Below are positions 118 to 38,997 of a stretch of 47,796 nucleotides of DNA, in pieces. The notes under the pieces were generated by a model, which had not been told where the DNA came from, made no database searches, and saw only the letters and a list, made by a program, of their open reading frames with translations. This DNA is from a virus. The translations under genes were made by a program, and so were the position numbers. How positions within the stretch are numbered: position 1 is the first letter of the stretch; each line of letters begins with the position of its first letter. The stretch is taken from IMG/VR virus record IMGVR_UViG_3300030104_005414, positions 1-47,796 of that record. One strand, given 5' to 3'.

Positions 118-1401
118 TTATTGATTGTTTCGTTTTTTAGGCTTTACAGGTGCTCTCACTCCGGTCGCTCTAGCGCGTGCTCTTGCTGCTGCCGCTTCAC
201 CACTTCTTCCATATTTTTTAGCCTGCATGTATGACTTTGCTACTCGACTAAAGTCACCTTTGAGAGCATCATATGCCTTAGACCGGGCGGTGTCTGGTGT
301 ATCAAGGCTTGGTCTTTGTGCTCCAGCCCGCGTCTCTATAGCCTGCCTCTTACGTTTATTTGCTTTTTTTACATCACCTTCATCGTAACGATCACCCCAA
401 CAGATACGCTTAAGGCCCTCTACTGCAATTTCAACAGCATCTTTAATGCCATGCTTGGCTGGCTTGGGAGGTGGGGGAGGCAGTTCTGTTTTCTTACCCT
501 TAGCCTTAGCTCTGGCTTTAGCTTTCTTAAAAGCATCTGGATCATCCTTAATACTGCCCTCCTTCACGGGTTTCTTCTTTTTGGATTTTTTACCAGTCTT
601 CTCATCTTCCTCATCCTCATCCTCATCACTACCTTTTAAACGACCTTTTAAGATATCAGCAAAAGTAATCTTGCCGTCTTTGTTTAAATCAGGGAAAGAT
701 TTCTCATCTGATCTTTTCTTATTACCCCTAAGCATCTCGAAATCTTCCGCATCGATCTTATTGTTTTTATTCTTATCCAGCTTCTTCTGCTTACCCTTCA
801 ACGCTTCACTAATTTTACTTTCAAGCATTGTAAGCAAAACTCGGTCCTGCTTGTGCTTAGAGACAATCTGTTGAGCACGCTCACTGTTCTCACGCATCGA
901 CTCCGAAAGCTCAGGGAAAGCGCCTCGTGTGGAGGGGTCCGAAACAAGATCAAACGTGATAAGTTTAAAATCTTCGTTGACGATCTTACCCTTGATGCCT
1001 TCTGTGACACTACCAACGCCACGGCTAGAGATGCCAATCTTTACACCATCGTTGATTAGGGCCTCAACAATCTTGCCGTTAGGGGTTGAAAGGATTTCGC
1101 ACTCACCTATAACTGAACCATCTTTAGCAACATTTAATCCAGTGATAAGGTGAGAGGCTTGCGAAAGGTGGATAGCGTCATTGGCTGGGTGATCAAGAGC
1201 GCCAACTAAAGAACGATCACCGATCTTTTCTTGAATAGCTTTAACTTGGCTCTCCAAGATCTTTCTCGGGTAAATCCTTCCATTATTGTTCTGCTCGTCG
1301 CACTGTTGGAATTTGCCTCGCAGACGAAGGCGAGTGTTACCCTCTTTGCCTTCATTGATAACTTCTACTTTCTCTAAAACATTGCACTCGACGAGTAACA
1401 T
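118..1401 (-). CDS. 21: Prohead core protease, T4 gp21 type, with EF-hand-like C-terminal extension
   Basis: This should be the serine protease that cleaves scaffold and capsid proteins inside the prohead during maturation. Residues 1-170 carry the gp21 pattern: GALDHPAND with the candidate catalytic His71, GISSRG with Ser125/126, and the conserved tail LITFDLVSDPS. The start at 1401 has AGGA seven bases upstream. T4 gp21 is about 212 residues; this protein is 427. The extra half holds two EF-hand-like loops (D209-D220 and D238-D249, Asp/Asn at positions 1, 3 and 5 and Asp at 12), then an acidic patch, a Lys-rich patch and a very basic Arg/Lys/Ala-rich tail from about residue 285. The basic tail may be cleaved off or may contact DNA or scaffold. 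The protease assignment is strong; the role of the extension is unknown. Confidence 0.88.
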   Translation of the reverse strand: MLLVECNVLEKVEVINEGKEGNTRLRLRGKFQQCDEQNNNGRIYPRKILESQVKAIQEKIGDRSLVGALDHPANDAIHLSQASHLITGLNVAKDGSVIGECEILSTPNGKIVEALINDGVKIGISSRGVGSVTEGIKGKIVNEDFKLITFDLVSDPSTRGAFPELSESMRENSERAQQIVSKHKQDRVLLTMLESKISEALKGKQKKLDKNKNNKIDAEDFEMLRGNKKRSDEKSFPDLNKDGKITFADILKGRLKGSDEDEDEEDEKTGKKSKKKKPVKEGSIKDDPDAFKKAKARAKAKGKKTELPPPPPKPAKHGIKDAVEIAVEGLKRICWGDRYDEGDVKKANKRKRQAIETRAGAQRPSLDTPDTARSKAYDALKGDFSRVAKSYMQAKKYGRSGEAAAARARARATGVRAPVKPKKRNNQ

Positions 1402-2603: not shown

Positions 2604-5600
2604 TTATACTCTAATTTTAGTAACGTTCTTTCGATCCTCTGAGGATACTATAGTTTTAGAGTCTTCCTCAATAACTCTAGAGGAGGTATTGAATCCCGAC
2701 TCAACATTTTCTATCTTGATGCCGCCCCTAAGTCCATTTGCAATACTAAGAATTAAATCCTTGTCGCTATCGTAAAAGACTTGACCCATCTTATTAACGG
2801 GCATTCTGCTGAAAACATCATACCAAGTTATCGTGGTGGTATTGTAAGTTGAAGAGAGATAATCAACAACCTCCCTGAGCATGTAAGCAGTTCCTTGGGC
2901 AGACACTGGTGAAGAGCTAGCCCCATACTCGTTGGAACTGCCAGAGTAAAAAGTTTGTGTAAAATCTTCTTCTAGATATTTATATCCAATATTTTGATCA
3001 CTCCCCTCTTCACCGTTGCCAACACGATCTACCCCACTTGCAACATTTAAACTATAAGATCTGAACATGGGCGGATTACCTCCGTCAATGAAAGCATCTG
3101 TTGCAGGTAGTACAGAGAGAGATCTTACATGAGTCTCACCGTGAGTTTTCAGATTTGAATTTCCGTTAAATGGATTATATTTACCACCAGCAACTGGAGT
3201 TACTACAAACCCAAAAGGTATATTTTTAACAAAACGCGACCCTATCGAGGAGAACCCTTTGTCTTTAAATCCATTAAGGTTGAAGTCGTTGAGTGATGCC
3301 ATAAATCCAGAAGTATCAAGAATGTATCTGTATATTGGATCTCTGTAATCAACAGAAAGCATAGGGGTATTCAAAGCGTTATTATTTACGTGTCTTTGAA
3401 TGTCTGCGGAATCGGTTAGCAGTGTGTAAGTTCCGCTATAATTCTCAACCAACGAATTGCTAGCATAATTTCCATTAACAGAACTTAGATCAAGAATGAA
3501 ATACAGAGGCTTTGTGGCAGAGGCACCAAGATCCCCAGCGATAAATTCATGTTGATTTGGAATTGATGATGCCGTAATAGTGATGGCTGGATCTATATCC
3601 AGCATCTCTAGAACTTTCAATCTAACTGACGGAGGGGCATAATATGAATCAGGTATAATGTTACCTGTGTACACAGCGTCTGTCTCATTACCAGACTTTA
3701 AAGCATCAATGTAATAACCGCCACCATCTCCAATGTTTAGTTTGTTTGGAGCACCCAAAGCTGGGATAGTTACCTGACCCACCGCACTAAGTGTGCTAAC
3801 TTCAAAACCATCATTAGGTATATTTAAATCTTTTACTGTGCCGTCTAGAGTTGTAACAGCCACCTGTAATTTAACGTCTTCATTAAGGGGTCTAACTCTA
3901 TTGATTTGAAAGTTTCTCCACGAGGAATTTTTACTATTCTCGTAGGTGTTAGCAGCGTTAGTGAGAAATTTAATGGCTAGACGGTCGGCTAGCTCTTTGT
4001 CCTTCGGCCTTTCCAACACATCAAACTTTTGATTTAGTTGCCCCTCAGCAGCTTGTAAGTAGTAATTAGGATCGAATTCATCAATGGTGCCCTCAAGTAA
4101 ATGTTTTCTTACGACATTCAATAACGTAGAAACACCGATTGGTTGACCACCAGGGTACCTTAAATATTGAAAAGTATTTGATAGAAGGGGGTTCAAGCTG
4201 GTTAGCAACTTATCGTCCGATAAATTTTGAAGAGTTATCTCATCCCAAGGACCAGTAGAATTTTTGGATTGAAGTAAATTAGCAACCTCTTCGGTCACTT
4301 CAGATTTGAATACATTTAAATTTAGATTGTTGGATACAATAATGGTTTCCTGGGTTGGCTCAGTTCTAAAGAAATTTAAATTAGGATCAAATAGAAAGGG
4401 CTCCGATATACCTTTTTCAATGTCTACGTAGTTTTCTTCTTCAACCATCTCATTTGCAGTTATGAGGTTGCCGTTGACAGCTTGCTGATTATTAACTATT
4501 TGATTAGCTTGATTGGTAGTGTTTATACTTACTGATGGCGATTGAGGTTGGACAGTCTGTGGTAGCCCAGGAGCAATCACACTAGGCTCATTTGCTGTGG
4601 AAAATGGCACAATAACAATAGGATCTCCAAGAGGTGTTGTAGGTTCAGACGTTGTAGTGGTCCCTAAAGCTGGAGGAGTTGGTTGAGAGATTGAAACACC
4701 TTGGCCTCTTGTAGGATCAGTCGTTGAACCTCCAGGCTCAGACGTTGTAGTGGTCCCTAAAGTTGGGTCTGGCTCCTGAGTGGGTACTTCCGGTGGGCAT
4801 GGGAGGTTTGTAAACGTGGGTGAGATACAGTTAGCTTCACACAAGGCTAAACTAGAAAAAGTGCAAGTAGGATCAGGCTCAACTGACCCATTAGCATTTA
4901 CAATATTTGGACTACACGTTCGACACTCGGTAAACACCGATGTGATAGTAGCCTCATTCAGAGGTAATCCTTCTTCCCCAGGACAAACACCCAGAGCCAC
5001 AACCTCGCATCTGTAATATATAATACCACCAGTCGTAGGGCCTTGCGGTGGTGGAGGAGCAGGGGGGAAAGGAGGAAGACCGGGGAATCGTGTGCCCCCA
5101 GGATTGGGAGTTATTGGCTTAAGAGGGCCGCGAGATGGAGGTACGACATCAGCGGGACGGCCAGTCGTTGGTCGTGACGATGGGCGAGATGGGGGCACGA
5201 CATCACCCGGCTCACGAACTCTCTCTTGAGGATTTAAACAATTTGGCCTACAGTCATTCAGACTTACATATATACATCCTGCATCTCCCGGCGATGGATT
5301 ATTTGGATCGCCAATACGAAGACCCGTTCTAGGGTCCGTTATGGTATTCTGCAAACCATCACAAGGCATACATTGCCTGTAGGGGGGATTGGTAAACGTA
5401 AATCCAGGAGCAGGGCTTGGAGCGCCTTGTCCAGGACTAATCTCAACACACTTTACTGCCGGTTCTTGAGGCGGTATGACAGGAGGGATGTAAGGTGGTA
5501 TAGGCTCTATTGGAGGTTTAGGCACTAACACCGGAGGTGTTATAGTTGGCTCTTGACCGCCAAATCCAGGGCCTTGAGTACCGGGCCTGACCCCTCTACC

Positions 5601-5644: not shown

Positions 5645-8320
5645 TTAGCTGCAAATAACAGTTGGGTCTTTTTCTCTCATTCGAGTTCTTCCCGCACCTA
5701 GGGAGTTTGTAAGGTAATCATCAGCCACTCCGATTACCTCCCATTGCACAGATGGGTAAAGAACTGGTACAAGTGTGTTAAAGAAGTTGGGCTCAGTGGT
5801 ATGGCCGGGATTCATTATGTTGTTGAAATATTGATCTGCTCTATTTTGCTGAAGATTCAAGGACTGTTTAATTTTAGAAGATCCGCCTTGACTGAACGTG
5901 CCATTGCTTAGGATCGGCATTTGAGGCATAACAAATCCTGTGAATTTACTAGGATTATTTCTGTTTTTCCAAGGACAGTGGTCTTCTACGTTAAAAATGG
6001 GTAAATCACATCCAGCCCAAGCCACACAAATTACAAAGTGATCTTTAAATTTTTGAACCCAAACATTGGAAGTTTGCCTTAAAGATGCTTTTTCGCCTTG
6101 TCCAAGGGGATTACAATGTAGAAGATTTACTTTTACGTGATAATCTTTTACCCAAGGAGTGGCATCTAAATTTAATTTTATTCTTTTAGTAACAAAATTA
6201 ACTTGAACATTTCTAGCGTTTATGCTGTTTCTTGAGGATTGATTTATACCAAGAAGAGCCGTTATTATCCGGTTGGGAAAGTTGGCGTTGTTGCTTGTGT
6301 TTATGCTGGCAGTAGGCAGACGACCAGTATTACGTGGAGAACCCCAGGTGTAGTTGGCGTATGCATCAAATCCAAATTGAGTTCTGAGTGCATCAACTGT
6401 GGATTGTTGATTACCCGTAGAGTCTATCCAAGGAGGTAAATACTTAACATCGTTATCAGGTCCAGCGAACTCAGTGATCATTCCATTGCCAATATTAATG
6501 TGATCGCATATCTGATCTCCAGTGAACTGACCGTTAGAATACCATTTCGCCTTATCCCAATTTGGGCGGAAAGGAATAGATCCTTCAGGGTAACCAAACT
6601 CGGATTCCACTAAATCTACTAGTTGGTTCATCTGAGCTTCTCTTAATCCGCCTGCCGCATCTCGTTTAGCTTGTTTAATAAGAGCGCCCTCAGGACCCCA
6701 ATAACCACCTAAAACATTACCAGCCGCGATTGGTCTAGCACCAGAATTTCCAGGACCTTGAATGTTCCCTACATTAGTTGAGACGGTAACAATAGATCCC
6801 TCGATGGCCCCAAGTCTATTATCTAAATCTGTATAAACTTCTTTCCTAACTCGCTCTAAACCCGCTTCGGTAACAACGGGGTTAGCTATTGAAGCTTGAG
6901 GCATTGCAGCGGCGATGCCCGCACGCTCGTTATAGGCTAATTCAGTCGTCCTAAAGAATGGACGAATATCAATAATATCCTCTTCGGTAATTAGATCAGT
7001 AATAGGTCCAGAATCAGCTTGAACTCTAATGTAAGCGATTGGAAGAATAGACTGTCCAATTAATTGAAAAGCAGCAGTCTCTAACTGCTCAGATAACGCG
7101 GGAGCTAAGTTCATCAAATCATCAGGAGATGGGAACGAACCTCTAATTATGCCCGCCGAAGTTGTAAAGCCATTATTAGTTCCATTTTCATCCCCAGGAT
7201 GAGCCAACATAATTGGGACACCATCAAGAGTTTGAAGGTTTACTCGATCATCGGTATCATTAGAATTGGCGGCTGTTTGCCTAGAAACACCAATACCAGC
7301 CCCTTTTAAAATACCTAGAGTTGCCGTAGTTAAGTTTGTGGGATTACCATTACTATCAAACTTAGGAATTGTGGTTGATTCCTCATCAACCCCCTTCGAG
7401 TAAATAAAGAGAAGATCTATTCTTTGATTAGCAGCAAGAGTTTGCTTAGTGCCTGCTGAATCCAAGAAAAAGAAATCGTTTTCATCAAAGTCGGGAACAG
7501 TAATTTCAAGCTGTTCAGGAACATCCACAATCGATGTCCTAATCGCGCCTCTCCATCTCTTTATAAACTCGGACTCCAAACGGCCTTGCTCAGTGCCTTG
7601 AGGATCGGTGTTCTCATCTCCGTCAAAAACGTTTTTTATGAGAGTTAAATTTCTGGTGGTCTCGGGAGTGCTATGCTTTAAGATAGCTCCAATAAAGTTG
7701 GGGTAAAGCGGTCTTTCATCAGCATCAAAGTCATCATCAAATTGAGAATAGCCGGGAGAGTCGGTACCAGACACAGCTATTCCCTGAGCTAAATGAAAAC
7801 CTGATTCAGTAAAGAAGGGGAAAACAAAAGCTCTCTCTGCGAGACCGTTCATGTTCAAAGCATTACCTAGAAGACCCTTTTGAAATTCTTCAAGAACAGC
7901 GGCAGCGGCGGTGCCTATGTTTGTTTGAACTTGGTAAGTATTCAAATCTGAAATTGTGCCATCAGTGTTTCTCGTGTTACTAAAGCCTCCAATTTGTTGA
8001 ATTACTTGTAAAGGAGTAAGTGTAAAAGCGTTGTTAATTCTAGCTGTGAACTTACCGGGCTTAACTTTTACCTTCCTATCATTACCCGTAGCAAAAGGCT
8101 TTAATTCAGAGAAACCGCTTCTATCTATTTCTATCTCTTGTTTGTTGTTCTGACGAGAAATGATACCGTCAACTTGGTCCTTAAGGAAGTTTTGAGATTC
8201 CTCTAATTGTTTGACTGGAATGTTATCAACCTCATAGTAGTAAGGGTCATTAGCCTTAAAATGCCTAACAGGGCTGATAAAAGTGAAAGGTGTTTGGTAA
8301 TATCTAATTTCGTTAGCCAT
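5645..8320 (-). CDS. Large baseplate or tail-fibre structural protein with N-terminal anchor motif
   Basis: An 891-residue protein without membrane segments. Near the N-terminus (residues 26-41) it has PYYYEVDNIPVKQLEE, which aligns with a similar segment in the next gene upstream (FYNFEQDNLPLHDLDE) and may dock both proteins on the same virion partner. The middle is mixed strand and loop; residues about 480-560 look helical, with AGLERVRKEVYTDLDNRLG. The C-terminal third contains several Trp-rich strands. AAGGA lies about eight bases before the ATG, and the start shares one base with the upstream stop (TAATG), so translation is probably coupled. I cannot name a family; baseplate-periphery or fibre is inferred from size and position. 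Confidence 0.7.
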   Translation of the reverse strand: MANEIRYYQTPFTFISPVRHFKANDPYYYEVDNIPVKQLEESQNFLKDQVDGIISRQNNKQEIEIDRSGFSELKPFATGNDRKVKVKPGKFTARINNAFTLTPLQVIQQIGGFSNTRNTDGTISDLNTYQVQTNIGTAAAAVLEEFQKGLLGNALNMNGLAERAFVFPFFTESGFHLAQGIAVSGTDSPGYSQFDDDFDADERPLYPNFIGAILKHSTPETTRNLTLIKNVFDGDENTDPQGTEQGRLESEFIKRWRGAIRTSIVDVPEQLEITVPDFDENDFFFLDSAGTKQTLAANQRIDLLFIYSKGVDEESTTIPKFDSNGNPTNLTTATLGILKGAGIGVSRQTAANSNDTDDRVNLQTLDGVPIMLAHPGDENGTNNGFTTSAGIIRGSFPSPDDLMNLAPALSEQLETAAFQLIGQSILPIAYIRVQADSGPITDLITEEDIIDIRPFFRTTELAYNERAGIAAAMPQASIANPVVTEAGLERVRKEVYTDLDNRLGAIEGSIVTVSTNVGNIQGPGNSGARPIAAGNVLGGYWGPEGALIKQAKRDAAGGLREAQMNQLVDLVESEFGYPEGSIPFRPNWDKAKWYSNGQFTGDQICDHINIGNGMITEFAGPDNDVKYLPPWIDSTGNQQSTVDALRTQFGFDAYANYTWGSPRNTGRLPTASINTSNNANFPNRIITALLGINQSSRNSINARNVQVNFVTKRIKLNLDATPWVKDYHVKVNLLHCNPLGQGEKASLRQTSNVWVQKFKDHFVICVAWAGCDLPIFNVEDHCPWKNRNNPSKFTGFVMPQMPILSNGTFSQGGSSKIKQSLNLQQNRADQYFNNIMNPGHTTEPNFFNTLVPVLYPSVQWEVIGVADDYLTNSLGAGRTRMREKDPTVICS

Positions 8321-33346: not shown

Positions 33347-33637
33347 ATGAATACGTTAGAAGAGGATTTAGTCGAAACTATTGACTTGCTTAACTTTACT
33401 TTCTCTAGTGACTTTGTAGATAAGTGGAGTTTTAAATATGGCAAAAGGCTTCCTAGCCTCTATCAACTTAGATTGTTGAAATCCTTAGACACAAGAAAGC
33501 CTTTAAAGCTTCAAACCGTCTACAAGTTTTTAGTGGTAGACTCGGGATTCAATGAGGAAGTCATCAAATCTTTCCTAGAGGATATTGACTACGAGGTTTA
33601 CTTTCCTATAATTAAAGGAAAGATAATAGACCTATGA
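33347..33637 (+). CDS. Small unknown protein, 96 residues
   Basis: A 96-residue, mostly helical protein with balanced charge and no membrane segment (begins MNTLEEDLVETIDLL; contains PSLYQLRLLKSLDTRKPLKL). It opens a plus-strand island inside the late minus-strand block. No Shine-Dalgarno precedes its ATG, but the CTATT-core motif does. The second gene of the pair overlaps its stop as ATGA at 33634. The pair lies beside nuclease and primase genes, so a role in DNA metabolism or early takeover is possible. I recognise no family. Confidence 0.6.
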   Translation: MNTLEEDLVETIDLLNFTFSSDFVDKWSFKYGKRLPSLYQLRLLKSLDTRKPLKLQTVYKFLVVDSGFNEEVIKSFLEDIDYEVYFPIIKGKIIDL

Positions 33638-33798
33638 AAACCGACGAAGACAAGATGATCTCCGCGCTGTTCAGAGAGCGTTCAATTGCAGATAATAAAT
33701 ATGATCCTGGACCTAACTGGGAACAGACGAATCTATTTGAAGATATAATTAGATACTTTGCTATCGGGTTCGTTTTTTACTGCTTTCTGACTTCTTGA
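33634..33798 (+). CDS. Tiny unknown protein, 54 residues, ATGA-coupled to upstream gene
   Basis: A 54-residue frame starting in the ATGA that ends the 96-residue gene. The peptide begins MKTDEDKMISALFRERSIAD, has NWEQTNLFEDIIRYF in the middle and ends in a short hydrophobic FAIGFVFYCFLTS. Its last 38 bases overlap tail-to-tail with the minus-strand nuclease gene (stop at 33761). The ATGA coupling, sensible composition up to the overlap and lack of other coding in 33638-33760 support it as real. The hydrophobic end could be a membrane tail. No family is recognised. Confidence 0.5.
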   Translation: MKTDEDKMISALFRERSIADNKYDPGPNWEQTNLFEDIIRYFAIGFVFYCFLTS

Positions 33799-34561
33799 GT
33801 TCTTTCTGCTCATCAATCCTCTGGCAGACAACTGACTCCGATTGAAACCTGGGGCAAGCCTCCTTATACTCACACCAATCACAGAAGACGTTTTCTTGAG
33901 CCCAAAACTCATCTTTCTTCTTCTTGCGAATCCTCCATACTTTTTCAGTCTGCACTTTCTTCCAGCGATCAATTTGGAACTTACTAAACTTCACCGCAAC
34001 AAAATTCCCAGTAACGGGGTAGTAGTGAGCGCAGTAGATCTTGTTGTAGGGGACATCATAAAGTTTGTGAATCGCCCATGCGTAACCCTTTAACTGATTG
34101 TCGTCCATGAGAGTCTTTTTCTTCTTCTCTCGTTTGGATGTCTTATAGTCAATAACCAGATAGCCACCATCATTACCCTTGATTACTCGGTCAATGACGC
34201 CTATGAAGTTGATGTCGTGCTTCTCATCCATCGGGACATTAACTACTTGCTCAGTAGACATAGTTTCCCCGAGTCCCTGATTCCAAAGTATGAAGTTTTC
34301 TAGACAAGACTTCATCCTATCATTATCACGGAAGGGGACCTTATAGGTCGCACGCTCTTGCTCCGCAATCCTCAACAAGGACTTAATGTCCTTCTCCTTG
34401 TAGCCCAGTTCAAATATCTTGTGAATAAAAGACCCGAAATTCAAAGCATCCTCATTCTTCGAGCCGAATCCCGGCAGTTTCAAGATGTATTTCAGTCTGT
34501 ATTTCCACAGGCACTGGTCTATGATGTCACTCTTAGAGGCACTAATACTATTTATGAACAT
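33761..34561 (-). CDS. PD-(D/E)XK exonuclease with four cluster cysteines (RecB/Cas4-like)
   Basis: A 266-residue nuclease of the RecB-like PD-(D/E)XK superfamily. The visible core is FIGVIDRV, then the catalytic strand YLVIDYKTSK with Asp and Lys, then QLKGYAWAIHKLY. Cys17 near the N-terminus and Cys227, Cys230 and Cys236 (FCDWCEYKEACPRF) match the four-cysteine arrangement that holds a [4Fe-4S] cluster in AddB, Cas4 and related exonucleases. The end is very basic. It probably acts in recombination or host DNA breakdown. Its ATG (34561-34559) shares CATG with the divergent primase start. It has no Shine-Dalgarno and converges on the tiny gene at 33634-33798. Confidence 0.82.
   Translation of the reverse strand: MFINSISASKSDIIDQCLWKYRLKYILKLPGFGSKNEDALNFGSFIHKIFELGYKEKDIKSLLRIAEQERATYKVPFRDNDRMKSCLENFILWNQGLGETMSTEQVVNVPMDEKHDINFIGVIDRVIKGNDGGYLVIDYKTSKREKKKKTLMDDNQLKGYAWAIHKLYDVPYNKIYCAHYYPVTGNFVAVKFSKFQIDRWKKVQTEKVWRIRKKKKDEFWAQENVFCDWCEYKEACPRFQSESVVCQRIDEQKELKKSESSKKRTR
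34547..34555 (+). promoter_or_regulatory. ACTATTTAT start-site motif ahead of primase
   Basis: Identical nine bases to the motif before the gene at 33347, here 13 bases before the ATG at 34560. It lies inside the first codons of the divergent nuclease gene, so a minus-strand promoter role there is unlikely, which favours plus-strand use. Confidence 0.4.
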
Positions 34562-35510
34562 GGAATCTGATTCTTATATTAGAAAATATTGTTTGGATAA
34601 GTTCCAGTCTAATTATAGACTTCAGAGTGACGATACAGAACTAGTAGTTCCATCTATATTCGTAGATAACGACTACAAACGTCACATGTCAATTAACACA
34701 GAAACTGGTTTGTGGAGGTGTTTTAAGACTGGGGAAGCAGGGAACTTTCTCAAGCTTTATGCCATTCTAGAGAAATGCAGCTATCGAGAGGCTTACGAAA
34801 AGTTTGTCTTCGAGGACTTCATGGCCGGTTACAAGGGTCGGCGTCCTATAGAGGAGTTTGATCCAAACCAGATTGAATCCGATCTTGATGAAGCTGAGAA
34901 CTTTAAGATTGTAGAAGATCATCCGTTTGTCCAGTCTCGTGGCGTGGATCAGTTTAATTTCTATATCGCCACGGGTGGAAAATACAGGGGCAGGTTAATT
35001 ATCCCGTTCATCAATCGCAACGGTAAGCTATTCTACTTCCAAGCAAGGGCTCTCGGAGATGAGCAACCCAAATATCTGAACTGTAAGAACCTAAAGAGTT
35101 CACAGGTTTTATACCCATTTGATTATGGATCTCAGGAGCCTCTATACATCACTGAAGGTGTATTCGATTGCCTTAGCCTACAGGCGGTAGGGTTGAATGC
35201 CACAACCACTCTAAGCTGCTTTACGAGCCGTGAGCAGATGCTACAACTCAGCCAGTATGCAGGGCCGTTGGTGTGTGCTTTTGACAGTGATGGTCCTGGC
35301 ATCACAGGTCGCAAAAAGTTCATGGATCTAGCGCATTGGATTCGGCGGGATGATCTGTATACTGTTGTGCCTCCTGAACCCTTCAAAGACTGGAATGAGA
35401 TCCTTGTCAAGAAGGACAGCGACTTTCTTAGGACAGAGGCAGAAAAGACTGGTAAGCTAGATGAACTTCACCTAACCTACCTAGCGTATAATAAAGGCCA
35501 TATCATTTGA
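34560..35510 (+). CDS. DNA primase with TOPRIM domain (T4 gp61-type role)
   Basis: A 316-residue protein from the ATG at 34560; an in-frame ATG at 34554 and others upstream would overlap the divergent nuclease more. It should make RNA primers for lagging-strand synthesis. The TOPRIM core is visible: PLYITEGVFDCLSLQAVGL with the catalytic Glu, then VCAFDSDGPGITGRKKF with the DxD pair. An N-terminal domain contains SINTETGLWRCFKTGEAGNF, like the zinc-ribbon region of primases but with only one of the expected cysteines. T4 gp61 is 342 residues. It converges on the minus-strand structural gene with a 30-base overlap. Family assignment is good; gp61 orthology is inferred from the T4-like setting. 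Confidence 0.82.
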   Translation: MESDSYIRKYCLDKFQSNYRLQSDDTELVVPSIFVDNDYKRHMSINTETGLWRCFKTGEAGNFLKLYAILEKCSYREAYEKFVFEDFMAGYKGRRPIEEFDPNQIESDLDEAENFKIVEDHPFVQSRGVDQFNFYIATGGKYRGRLIIPFINRNGKLFYFQARALGDEQPKYLNCKNLKSSQVLYPFDYGSQEPLYITEGVFDCLSLQAVGLNATTTLSCFTSREQMLQLSQYAGPLVCAFDSDGPGITGRKKFMDLAHWIRRDDLYTVVPPEPFKDWNEILVKKDSDFLRTEAEKTGKLDELHLTYLAYNKGHII

Positions 35511-36431
35511 CACGATAGTCTGATTCAAAGCCGTAAACTTCAGTCTAGCAACATAAGTCCCTGTCAGAGATCCTAAGTTACCGTTTAGCAACTCAGGGTG
35601 AGTCTTTAGAGCCTCTGTATCTAATGTGAAGATAACAGTGTTTTCAGAAGTAGTATCCATTAGACCGGAAGTCGCGGAGTACCCTGACACCTCAACACGA
35701 GCGCCCAAGTTCCTATCTTGATTCTTTTTGTAAATCTCAAGCATTGGATCAGTAACTAAAGACATCTTAAAAAGATTTACAATGCTACGATCTATGTTGG
35801 CATTCTCAAGAGTGAATTCATTGGTAATTTTAAGATCTACTTTTGAACCTAAAACAACATGATTATTCTCTAATCGAGTAGCTACTCTAAACAGCAGGGG
35901 TTCTGTGACGCCAAAGAATCTATCCTCAGTTAGAGTAAACTCATTGATGATGGTATCGAGATCTGACCCAGCAGTCCTCTTAACAGTCCATACATCGATA
36001 TAATCCCCCGTTGTTGAAACCGTATTAAGTATCTCAGTATCACCTGATAGATTAAATACACCACTAGGGATAACGTCAGCTTTATCCAATACACATGCAA
36101 ACTTACCAGTTTCCAATTTGTAGATACCAGATGCCATGGTAACTACGTCAGGTGTGTAGTTGCTTGCATTAAATGCAGAATCACTGGTGAGAGTAGCACT
36201 ATTAGAGAAGTGCATGAGCACGCTACCTGTCACATCAGAATTGATCTCTCCGTCAGAATTTATAACTGAACTTGGAGATTGGTTATCGGAAGCAGCAAAG
36301 ATAGAAACTCCACTAATTGCGTGAGGGTCCACGTATTGCCCGTCATTTATAAAGTACAATATTAGAGCAGTTGGACCCAGAACAGTGGGTCTCTCATGCC
36401 TCGTGGTGACTTGATTTCCGTTGATTTTCAT
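35481..36431 (-). CDS. Structural protein candidate downstream of the gp26-type gene
   Basis: A 316-residue protein, mainly beta with Ser, Thr and Asn-rich loops and no membrane segment. The sequence reads like a sandwich-domain tail component (GPTALILYFINDGQYVDPHA near the N-terminus; LKFTALNQTIVSNDMAFII at the end). Its ATG follows the end of the frameshifted gp26-type frame by one base (TAGC ATG), so the two are probably co-translated. It is the last gene of this minus-strand unit and overlaps the primase end by 30 bases. A virion role is inferred from context only. Confidence 0.55.
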   Translation of the reverse strand: MKINGNQVTTRHERPTVLGPTALILYFINDGQYVDPHAISGVSIFAASDNQSPSSVINSDGEINSDVTGSVLMHFSNSATLTSDSAFNASNYTPDVVTMASGIYKLETGKFACVLDKADVIPSGVFNLSGDTEILNTVSTTGDYIDVWTVKRTAGSDLDTIINEFTLTEDRFFGVTEPLLFRVATRLENNHVVLGSKVDLKITNEFTLENANIDRSIVNLFKMSLVTDPMLEIYKKNQDRNLGARVEVSGYSATSGLMDTTSENTVIFTLDTEALKTHPELLNGNLGSLTGTYVARLKFTALNQTIVSNDMAFIIR

Positions 36432-36432
36432 G

Positions 36433-37343
36433 CTAACTCTCCAGCTTCTTTATCTCTTCAGTATAAAAGTTAATAAAGGTCAAACGCTCTTTCTGAGTCA
36501 GAGTTTTTACCTCTGAGTATGTTAAGCCCACCTTATTTACTAATATATACGCTTGATAAAGAAGATCCTCTGGGGATAAACTGCTAGTTAGCTCACTGAA
36601 AAAAAACCAACATCCATCGGGATTGCCATAGTATCAGTGTGCCTGCATTCAGGGCATTCAAACAAGAATTTGGGGTCAACACCATACTCGGTCTCATTCA
36701 CACCAGCGATCAAGGTTTTGATATCTTGAATGTGCATTCTCTTCAGAGCCTTCGATATAAAGACAGGGTCGGAATTGTCGTTAATTGATACTACAAACCT
36801 GTAAAGATTTTTGTATACTTCTTCGGAGGAGCTTAAAAAAGATTCTTCTCGGCCTCTAGGGAATCTAACCTTAGCGGTAACTTTTAATCTAGGTAATTGA
36901 ACCTCACGAGGGTCTTCCATATCATCAGGCACTGGGTTCATATTTAAGTGTTCCGAGAGAACAAGAGACGATTTAATGTCAGCGTTGCAATTAGGGCAAA
37001 TAATATTAAAGCTATAATCCTTACCGTAAGACAACTCACGGACCTTCATCAGAAGATACAGCTTGTCCATCGAAAGCAAATCTCCTACGTCAACACCTTC
37101 TATGCACTTTTCCAGTAGTTTGGCTACGATGTCTTTATTGTTATCCTTGGCCGTAAGGATGGTCTGCTCATCCAAGAAAGTTAATGCTTTAATCTCCACT
37201 CCATTAAATCCATCATAAAACTTACCTTTAGACGGCAGGTCTGTAATTGTCATAGAATCTTCAACTGATCCTGCGAAAAGAGCATTTATGGCATCTTCTC
37301 TAGGATCCCCTGAACCTCCTACTATTTGTTTGTTTTCACTCAT
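36433..37343 (-). CDS. Predicted -1 frameshift product of the gp26-type gene (303 residues)
   Basis: The gp26-type frame ends with GGT TTT TTT TCA GTG AGC TAA. A -1 slip on the U8 run (36599-36606) enters a frame that stays open for 55 codons to the TAG at 36435, one base before the next ATG. The added peptide is plausible protein: LSPEDLLYQAYILVNK, then TYSEVKTLTQKERLTFINFY. This frame has a TGA 10-11 codons upstream of the slip and no ATG, GTG or TTG after it, so independent initiation is hard to explain. The layout matches the G/GT tail-chaperone frameshift of many long-tailed phages. In T4 the small gene 51 follows 26. Inferred, not demonstrated. Confidence 0.6.
36588..37343 (-). CDS. 26: Baseplate hub assembly protein, T4 gp26 type, with two CxxC pairs
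   Basis: A 251-residue protein. It follows the T4_baseplate (gp26) family plan: LPSKGKFYDG at the start, a helix LLEKCIEGVDVGDLLSMDKL, KVRELSYGKDYSFNI, then a cysteine pair (CPNCNADI) and a second pair near the end (CPECRHTD), probably a zinc ribbon completed by both pairs. T4 gp26 is about 208 residues. It acts in hub assembly rather than necessarily staying in the virion. The ATG at 37343 follows AAAGG and a TATAAT-like box. The 3-prime end contains the U8 slippery run that probably joins it to the next frame. Confidence 0.75.
   Translation of the reverse strand: MSENKQIVGGSGDPREDAINALFAGSVEDSMTITDLPSKGKFYDGFNGVEIKALTFLDEQTILTAKDNNKDIVAKLLEKCIEGVDVGDLLSMDKLYLLMKVRELSYGKDYSFNIICPNCNADIKSSLVLSEHLNMNPVPDDMEDPREVQLPRLKVTAKVRFPRGREESFLSSSEEVYKNLYRFVVSINDNSDPVFISKALKRMHIQDIKTLIAGVNETEYGVDPKFLFECPECRHTDTMAIPMDVGFFSVS
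36600..36606 (-). other. U UUU UUU slippery heptamer for -1 frameshifting
   Basis: On the minus strand eight T residues (36606-36599) sit in the zero frame as T TTT TTT T, a perfect X XXY YYZ slippery site, four codons before the zero-frame stop. After a -1 slip both codons still pair as UUU. The next 170 bases are open in the -1 frame. A pseudoknot was not identified by eye. Confidence 0.6.
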
Positions 37344-37379: not shown

Positions 37380-38765
37380 ATGAAGATAGTGATAGGTAAC
37401 TTAACCTCCACCCTAGAGACTGATAACCCAAAAATTATCAATGCATTGAGGGATAAGTATGCTTTTTCAGTTCCAGGGCACGAATACTCGCAAGCCTATA
37501 AGAGACGACGTTGGGATGGTAAGAAGCGATACTTTGGTGCTAACGGTAAGTTTAGAACAGGTTTATTGCCTCGAATCGTAGAGGATTTAAAAAATATTGG
37601 AGTAAAGGATATCGAGTGGGAAAACAAGCCTGAACCAGAGACGTACTACCTACCTAACGTCGGTGATTTCGAATATCGTGAATATCAAGAAAAAGCCATA
37701 TATGAGTGCCTCAACAAAAAAAGAGCAATAGTTGATAGTCCAACGGGTTCAGGTAAGACGCTTATAATGGCCGGGTGCATTGCCGCATTACAATGGGGTG
37801 ATAATCCAAAGGCAGTTATTCTTTTTAGAGAGAAAGGTATTTTAAACCAGACTTACGAGTTTTTCAAAAAGTGCGGTATAAAAAACTTAGGTTACAATTC
37901 AGGGGAGGGATATTTACCTGGGAATGTTATGCTTTCAACTGTGCAGAGCATAGAAAAGATTATCGACACACACCTCAACGAGGCTGAGATTCTTATGGTT
38001 GATGAGGCTCATCAATTTTGCAGAGGTGACACAACCATAGCAGCCATTGAGAGCTTCCCTAACGCCTCCTACAGGCTTGCATTTACTGCTACACCTCCTA
38101 GAGAGGGTTCAAAAGACATCAACGCTAGAATGGTCCTAGAGGGATCATTCGGACCCGTATACACAACTCGCACCGCAGAGGCACTTATTAAAGATGGCGC
38201 TCTTGCAAAGCCGATCATACAAATCGTAGATAATAGCCCCACTTCATCAGTTAGAAGTGATTTAACGTATCTCGATATTTACGACCAATACGTGGTAAAT
38301 TGTGATCAACGTAACGACAAGATTAAAACAATTGTATCAAAGATATACCAGTCTAATCCTAAAGCTAAAATTTTAATTCTTGTAAAGAACTTGCAACACA
38401 TTGAGAATCTACAAGAACGAGTTAATAACTGCTACACTATCGAAGGTAAGGATGATATCGATAGTAGATATGATATTATCAACAAGTTTGTGAAGGACAA
38501 TAAGGCTGCTACTATCATTGGCACCAACGTCATGCAAACTGGTATTAGCATTGATGAGATTACCCACATGATCAACGCTAGAGGTTTATCAGGTGAGGTC
38601 CCCACACTACAGGGATTAGGTAGAGGTATTCGTAAAGCAGATGGTAAAGATAAGATGTATTTCTACGACTTCTATGATCGTATGCCTTATCTAGAGAACC
38701 ACTCAAAGCAGAGGATACGACACTACAAAAGATTAAAGTTCGAGGTAAACGATGTCCGATTCTGA
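37380..38765 (+). CDS. uvsW: SF2 DNA/RNA helicase, UvsW type
   Basis: A 461-residue superfamily 2 helicase. Motifs in order: Q-type YREYQEKAI at about 99-107, Walker A SPTGSGKT at 120-127, DEAH at 208-211, TATP at 236-239, and motif VI QGLGRGIRKA near 420. The N-terminal 95 residues include YKRRRWDGKKRYF, as in the small N-terminal domain of T4 UvsW. UvsW unwinds branched DNA and R-loops and controls the switch from origin-dependent to recombination-dependent replication. T4 UvsW is 503 residues counting its C-terminal part; here a separate small gene overlaps the end by 14 bases. No Shine-Dalgarno precedes the ATG; the CTATT-core motif does. Confidence 0.88.
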   Translation: MKIVIGNLTSTLETDNPKIINALRDKYAFSVPGHEYSQAYKRRRWDGKKRYFGANGKFRTGLLPRIVEDLKNIGVKDIEWENKPEPETYYLPNVGDFEYREYQEKAIYECLNKKRAIVDSPTGSGKTLIMAGCIAALQWGDNPKAVILFREKGILNQTYEFFKKCGIKNLGYNSGEGYLPGNVMLSTVQSIEKIIDTHLNEAEILMVDEAHQFCRGDTTIAAIESFPNASYRLAFTATPPREGSKDINARMVLEGSFGPVYTTRTAEALIKDGALAKPIIQIVDNSPTSSVRSDLTYLDIYDQYVVNCDQRNDKIKTIVSKIYQSNPKAKILILVKNLQHIENLQERVNNCYTIEGKDDIDSRYDIINKFVKDNKAATIIGTNVMQTGISIDEITHMINARGLSGEVPTLQGLGRGIRKADGKDKMYFYDFYDRMPYLENHSKQRIRHYKRLKFEVNDVRF

Positions 38766-38997
38766 AATTATTACTAAAGAGGCTCAAGTTGACACGATCA
38801 ACAAAATTACGAAAGATCAAACAAACTTGATCGACGGGTGCATTGATATGCTGAAAGAGATGAAAGATCACGGTAAGATAAATGAAGCTACCGTCAGAAA
38901 TCTCACCAGTATAATTAGAGAATTGGATTCTCTTCGTGAACTATTCTACACCCGCCTGTTCAACTCACTTAAGCGTGGTGATATGCTTTTAGGTTAG
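38752..38997 (+). CDS. Small helical protein coupled to UvsW-type helicase (UvsW.1-like candidate)
   Basis: An 81-residue protein predicted as two long helices (TKDQTNLIDGCIDMLKEM and NLTSIIRELDSLRELFYTRL) with a short turn. It starts inside the helicase gene with GAGG before its ATG and overlaps it by 14 bases. T4 also encodes a small helical-hairpin protein, UvsW.1, at the 3-prime side of uvsW, so this is a likely counterpart by position and shape, though sequence similarity is not established. Its stop overlaps the stop of the minus-strand fibre gene by four bases. Confidence 0.62.
   Translation: MSDSEIITKEAQVDTINKITKDQTNLIDGCIDMLKEMKDHGKINEATVRNLTSIIRELDSLRELFYTRLFNSLKRGDMLLG

Follow-up and report, generated by a model that had tools for sequence, protein, structure and literature searches.

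The stretch of DNA analysed here (the window) comprises 47,796 nt of the virus record IMGVR_UViG_3300030104_005414 and carries on its minus strand a gene for a 251-aa protein of the PF12322 (T4_baseplate) family. The protein matches the PF12322 profile with E=1.2e-16 and 61.5 bits, well above the curated cut-off of 24.5, and covers most of it (positions 5-211 of 219); it also matches PHROG_150 (baseplate hub; E=1e-18). Its AlphaFold model, with a mean pLDDT of 83.9, finds its structural matches among predicted viral baseplate hub proteins, with that of phage SP-15 at the top (E=2.4e-15). No significant match was returned when the model was compared with the PDB using Foldseek, and the second-ranked entry there, YqbN (3klu), was not taken as evidence at E=2.0. 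A sequence search for relatives of solved structure likewise gave none.

The window also encodes a prohead protease, a gp25-like wedge protein, a second wedge subunit, a T4-type terminase and a portal protein, a gene content consistent with a fragment of a T4-related myovirus. The prohead protease (118-1401, minus strand) shows an unusual combination of a Peptidase_S77 domain at residues 15-162 and an EF-hand/dockerin-like stretch at residues 206-252. Plus-strand ORFs at 33347-35510 and 37380-38997, some of them helicase- or primase-like by eye, flank the PF12322 gene and break up the minus-strand structural genes. A tape measure protein is possibly encoded by a gene that lies not next to the PF12322 gene but two minus-strand genes further on; its 559-aa product has a high computed helix propensity, a length near that of T4 gp29 and no family match. 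DUF6760 may be linked to contractile injection systems; a literature search for such a link found no paper.

Features of the gp26-type locus in the window (positions as in the 47,796-nt stretch)
Feature	Position	Strand	Basis
Zero-frame gene, predicted short chaperone form, 251 aa, PF12322	36588..37343	minus	ORF; PF12322 and PHROG_150 matches
U8 slippery run, U_UUU_UUU as read in the zero frame	36599..36606	minus	sequence; invariant in 50 distinct relatives
TAA, stop of the zero frame	36588..36590	minus	sequence
-1 frame tail of 55 codons counted from the slip, closed by TAG (36435..36433)	36433..36600	minus	dN/dS; gp51-tail homology
TGA, nearest -1 frame stop 5' of the U8 run	36634..36636	minus	sequence
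Next gene, 316 aa, no family match	35481..36431	minus	ORF; family searches
Candidate tape measure gene, 559 aa	31211..32890	minus	weak inference from helix propensity and length

Read in zero-frame codons, the 3' end of the 251-aa gene is GGU_UUU_UUU_UCA_GUG_AGC_UAA, and its T8 run is the only eight-base A or T homopolymer in the window. The -1 frame is closed by a TGA nine codons upstream of the run, is open for 57 codons counted from the first T of the run (55 counted after the slip), and its TAG stands one base before the ATG (36431) of the next gene. An earlier note on this DNA had described this arrangement, namely a zero frame closing soon after U UUU UUU, a TGA a few codons upstream and a 55-codon -1 extension ending one base before the next gene, and it is borne out at these positions. 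The note had also called the -1 frame start-less. This is correct up to GTG 36531, the 26th codon of the tail, before which there is no ATG, GTG or TTG, but not beyond it, since that GTG and a TTG at 36483 (42nd codon) are present, both within the conserved domain. A slip at the run would yield a long form of 248 + 55 = 303 aa.

TTTTTTTTCAGTGAGCTAAC is retained, together with the same -1 tail, in all six full-length relatives that were compared first (69-90% identity), and this 20-mer is present in 54 stretches of viral contigs. To obtain an unbiased set, relatives were searched by protein alignment alone and not by slip site. Among the 64 loci thus selected that have their 3' end present (37-90% identity; near-duplicates included, 53 distinct besides the window), every one carries U_UUU_UUY close to where the zero frame stops, followed by 51-60 codons of -1 tail. 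Three of them have U_UUU_UUC instead of U_UUU_UUU, the run there being T6 followed by C. The eight T positions are invariant across 50 distinct relatives, as against a mean minor-base fraction of 0.48 at upstream third codon positions. The median dN/dS of the tail among distinct relatives is 0.133 in the -1 frame, whereas the zero and +1 frames give 1.36 and 2.32, respectively; for the chaperone gene itself it is 0.162. Conservation of slip site and tail is thus far beyond chance. The programmed -1 frameshift that the earlier note had proposed, joining a gp26-type gene to a frame without a start, is strongly supported by this comparison, and its suggestion to look for the extension and the T8 run in homologues led to both being found, the run as U_UUU_UUY. 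Searches at the slip site for a conserved downstream RNA structure in the window family and for an upstream Shine-Dalgarno-like stimulator gave no signal for either, so that the frameshift rate may be low.

The same arrangement is found in cultured phages. In each of S-PM2, P-SSM2, KVP40, HTVC008M and Atu_ph07, a single PF12322 gene has U_UUU_UUY at its end and continues in a -1 tail. Among S-PM2-like contigs, all 80 that were fetched share U_UUU_UUC, with -1 tails 55-64 codons long. The records of KVP40 (6613-6780 of the fetched stretch), S-PM2 (5191-5364) and HTVC008M (4367-4504) give the tail an entry of its own, as a short gp51 or a hub assembly gene, and the KVP40 record notes its resemblance to a 40-residue C-terminal stretch of T4 gp51. 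Probably, these short 'gp51' genes are frameshifted tails of gp26 and not independent genes. In all three phages a tail tube gene (in S-PM2 an unnamed gene) precedes the pair, and a long actual or possible tape measure gene follows 3' of it, directly or past one small gene. Together with SP-15, LIS04 and Mel-JY01, they have the pair ahead of a (putative) tape measure gene; it lies between the tail tube and tape measure genes in SP-15, LIS04 and HTVC008M and, by position, in S-PM2, KVP40 and Mel-JY01. Neither of these two genes has a certain assignment in the window, so that a placement of the chaperone between them is only a candidate there.

These annotations raise the alternative that the tail is translated independently, as a small protein with its own initiation or through termination-reinitiation. 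Indeed, an ATG in the tail frame overlaps the stop in KVP40 (TAATG), follows it by a few bases in S-PM2 and P-SSM2, and occurs at that place in 25 of 57 distinct S-PM2-like loci; where the stop has such an ATG beside it, as in KVP40 and some cyanophages, reinitiation may occur. However, the slippery heptamer is retained even in loci with the ATG, HTVC008M has no start near the stop, and neither do 46 of the 49 distinct window-family loci. In the window, where the earliest in-frame start is the GTG at the 26th tail codon, reinitiation is unable to produce the whole tail. We therefore consider separate initiation improbable as an account of this locus.

Still less probable is that RNA polymerase slips on T8 and the frame changes already in the mRNA, before translation. 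Such a homopolymer is, as a matter of general knowledge, suitable for it, but the run is T6 followed by C in the three window-family loci mentioned above and in every S-PM2-like locus, and these are still perfect tandem -1 sites; we therefore favour ribosomal over transcriptional slippage. For a break due to sequencing error or to recent pseudogenisation, nothing speaks beyond the error-prone nature of homopolymers. The earlier note had named an error in the T8 run as a refutation of its proposal, and this is excluded by the same run and break in dozens of independent contigs. With a tail frame under purifying selection and cultured-phage genomes of the same arrangement, the comparative data have refuted this reading already, and we give it next to no weight.

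In T4, the full length of the PF12322 profile is matched by gp26 (E=8.8e-64) as well as by gp51 (E=3.9e-52); gp26 ends two residues past the matched domain, and gp51 extends 48 residues further. The gp51 tail is in frame and homologous to the -1 tail of the window, gp26 has no such tail, and T4 gene 26 has no slippery site. A direct comparison of the window tail with the single T4 gp51 sequence was too weak alone, and profiles were therefore used on both sides. Using hhalign, a profile of nine gp51 tails matched the window-family tails with probability 80 and a score of 29.3, against 17.3 for the best of 60 column shuffles; for the cyanophage tails the probability was 98.3 and the score 69.7 (best shuffle, 14.2). 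The profile match between window-family and cyanophage tails was weak (probability 21.5; z of 4.5 relative to column shuffles). The comparison with gp51 proposed in the earlier note thus gives a match, and its idea that T4 gp26 and gp51 represent a split chaperone fusion is supported, given that both belong to PF12322 and that the tail is present in gp51 alone. Strong comparative evidence points to gp26 as the short and gp51 as the long tail assembly chaperone of T4.

Gene copy number follows the same pattern. Two PF12322 copies are present in nine sampled T4-like genomes (T4, RB43, Aeromonas 31, phiP4-3, SFHK24, phiAS4, PhT2-v2, RCIP0002 and Entb_45) and one in 22 other records, of which ten are named (S-PM2, P-SSM2, HTVC008M, KVP40, Atu_ph07, SP-15, LIS04, GXN1, LR756508 and LR756511) and 12 are uncultured contigs that may be fragments. 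The tail lies in another frame, and not as a clear gene of its own, in 21 of the 22 single-copy records, so that copy number and tail frame are associated across the 31 records, with LR756511 ambiguous. In LR756511, a tail-like frame starts at an ATG overlapping the zero-frame stop (TAATG; stop at 2215, reverse complement), and it may be either a separate gene or the product of a shift. The window, a 47.8-kb fragment, contains a single PF12322 gene and no second in-frame copy of the gp51 type; related contigs of 48-65 kb, from genomes that may be incomplete, also have one each.

In a sister group, to which SP-15, LIS04, GXN1, LR756508 and Mel-JY01 belong, the frame of the tail is +1 (or -2). 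An alignment-based scan for this type found at least 588 related stretches, of which 80 were kept as a sample, one of them without 3' sequence. In all 79 stretches with 3' sequence the +1 frame stays open beyond 60 codons, the -1 frame being open slightly further in six. Read in the +1 frame, the tail has a dN/dS of 0.36, compared with 1.17-1.47 for the other frames. UUU_UUU_UGG_CCU_G (FFWP) is the most frequent site (57/80); as candidate +1 shift codon, UUU_Y suits most members and CCC_A others, and a -2 shift is also compatible. In SP-15, LIS04 and GXN1, the +1 tail lies near a common CCCGAT (stretch positions 6712-6930, 6661-6890 and 6721-7080, respectively); the small ORF SP15_046 of SP-15 is part of the tail, which is unannotated in LIS04 and GXN1. 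Profile comparison relates these tails to the -1 type, with a probability of 92.6 between window-family and SP-15-group tails and of 91.0 between cyanophage and FFWP-group tails; matches of +1 tails to gp51 tails were weak (5.2 and 16.0). No PF12322 match was found at E 0.01 in Mel-JY01, nor in four out of nine uncultured contigs of the +1 type, and copy counts are therefore uninformative for these. We consider it likely that one chaperone family conserves the fusion and not the means to it, using a -1 shift (window family, cyanophages, KVP40), a +1/-2 shift (SP-15, LIS04, Mel-JY01 and the large uncultured FFWP sister group) or duplication (T4), and that the direction of the shift switched at a single locus during evolution.

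Phage lambda makes a short protein, G, and a -1-frameshifted longer form, GT. The window family resembles lambda G/GT and its counterparts (Xu, Hendrix and Duda 2004) in having a short form and a -1 long form, encoded by two overlapping frames, and a conserved slippery heptamer: an X_XXY_YYZ heptamer stands near the end of the first frame, and the second frame is open across the site, has no usable start of its own and is under purifying selection. It differs in belonging to PF12322 and in its U_UUU_UUU site, and the two are likened by arrangement, with no claim of sequence similarity. Because gp26 and gp51 both belong to PF12322, because of the gp51 tail homology and because of the pattern of copy number and frame, we assign the locus to the tail assembly chaperones of the lambda G/GT type. 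We are thus highly confident that at this locus a T4-related myovirus encodes its tail assembly chaperone, as a short form and a -1-frameshifted long form. Comparison supports the conserved slip site, the selected out-of-frame tail and the homology to gp26/gp51; the occurrence of slippage, its rate and product ratio, and the chaperone function are what we infer. In our working model, the majority of ribosomes would stay in the zero frame and produce the short form, and on some, both Phe-tRNAs would slip by -1 in tandem on U_UUU_UUU, adding the 55 codons of the long form. By analogy to lambda G/GT, the short form would coat the tape measure protein, the tail of the long form would recruit tail tube subunits, and both forms would depart before completion of the virion.

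T4-like tail assembly chaperones gp26/gp51 are reportedly the subject of Vladimirov, Gautam and Davidson 2022 (Virology 566:9-15). G-T frameshifting was reviewed in 2016 as conserved in long-tailed phages with the exception of T4 (PMC5009743), and a 2010 review of T4 counts both gp26 and gp51 among the hub assembly chaperones, with gp51 essential and of unknown function (PMC3004832). Going by the passages that cite them, Vladimirov et al. 2022 are credited with T4-like tail assembly chaperones, some phages having one short and one fused long gene (PMC10885494), and with poly-T slippery sites in T4-like chaperone genes (PMC12846349). The earlier note had known of no described frameshift in a gp26/gp51-type pair; on the word of these citing papers, novelty is not supported, and the locus therefore appears to be a further case of a known tail-assembly device. 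T4 shares with the window PF12322, the homologous tail and, according to the same citing passages on T4-like short-form genes, poly-T sites, but its long form is a separate paralogue, gp51, in place of one gene with a U8 site. Two other systems can be likened by description. The chaperone of Vandenendeviridae and Andersonviridae (PMC12846349), phage families other than that of the window, likewise serves tail assembly in myoviruses and has an unannotated tail and a -1 site rich in U (GTTTTT). For phage 0305phi8-36, gp143/gp144 were proposed as a two-gene version of G/GT, as in T4 and, unlike the window, without a frameshift (PMC2147016).

Our data add a widespread uncultured marine phage group to those with frameshifted chaperones, and the +1 (or -2) sister families with a homologous tail are apparently less described. 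They also call for a correction of annotation, as short 'gp51' or 'hypothetical' ORFs beside gp26 probably do not represent genes in their own right. With its -1, +1 and two-gene versions, this one family offers a natural experiment on how the ratio of the chaperones is set.
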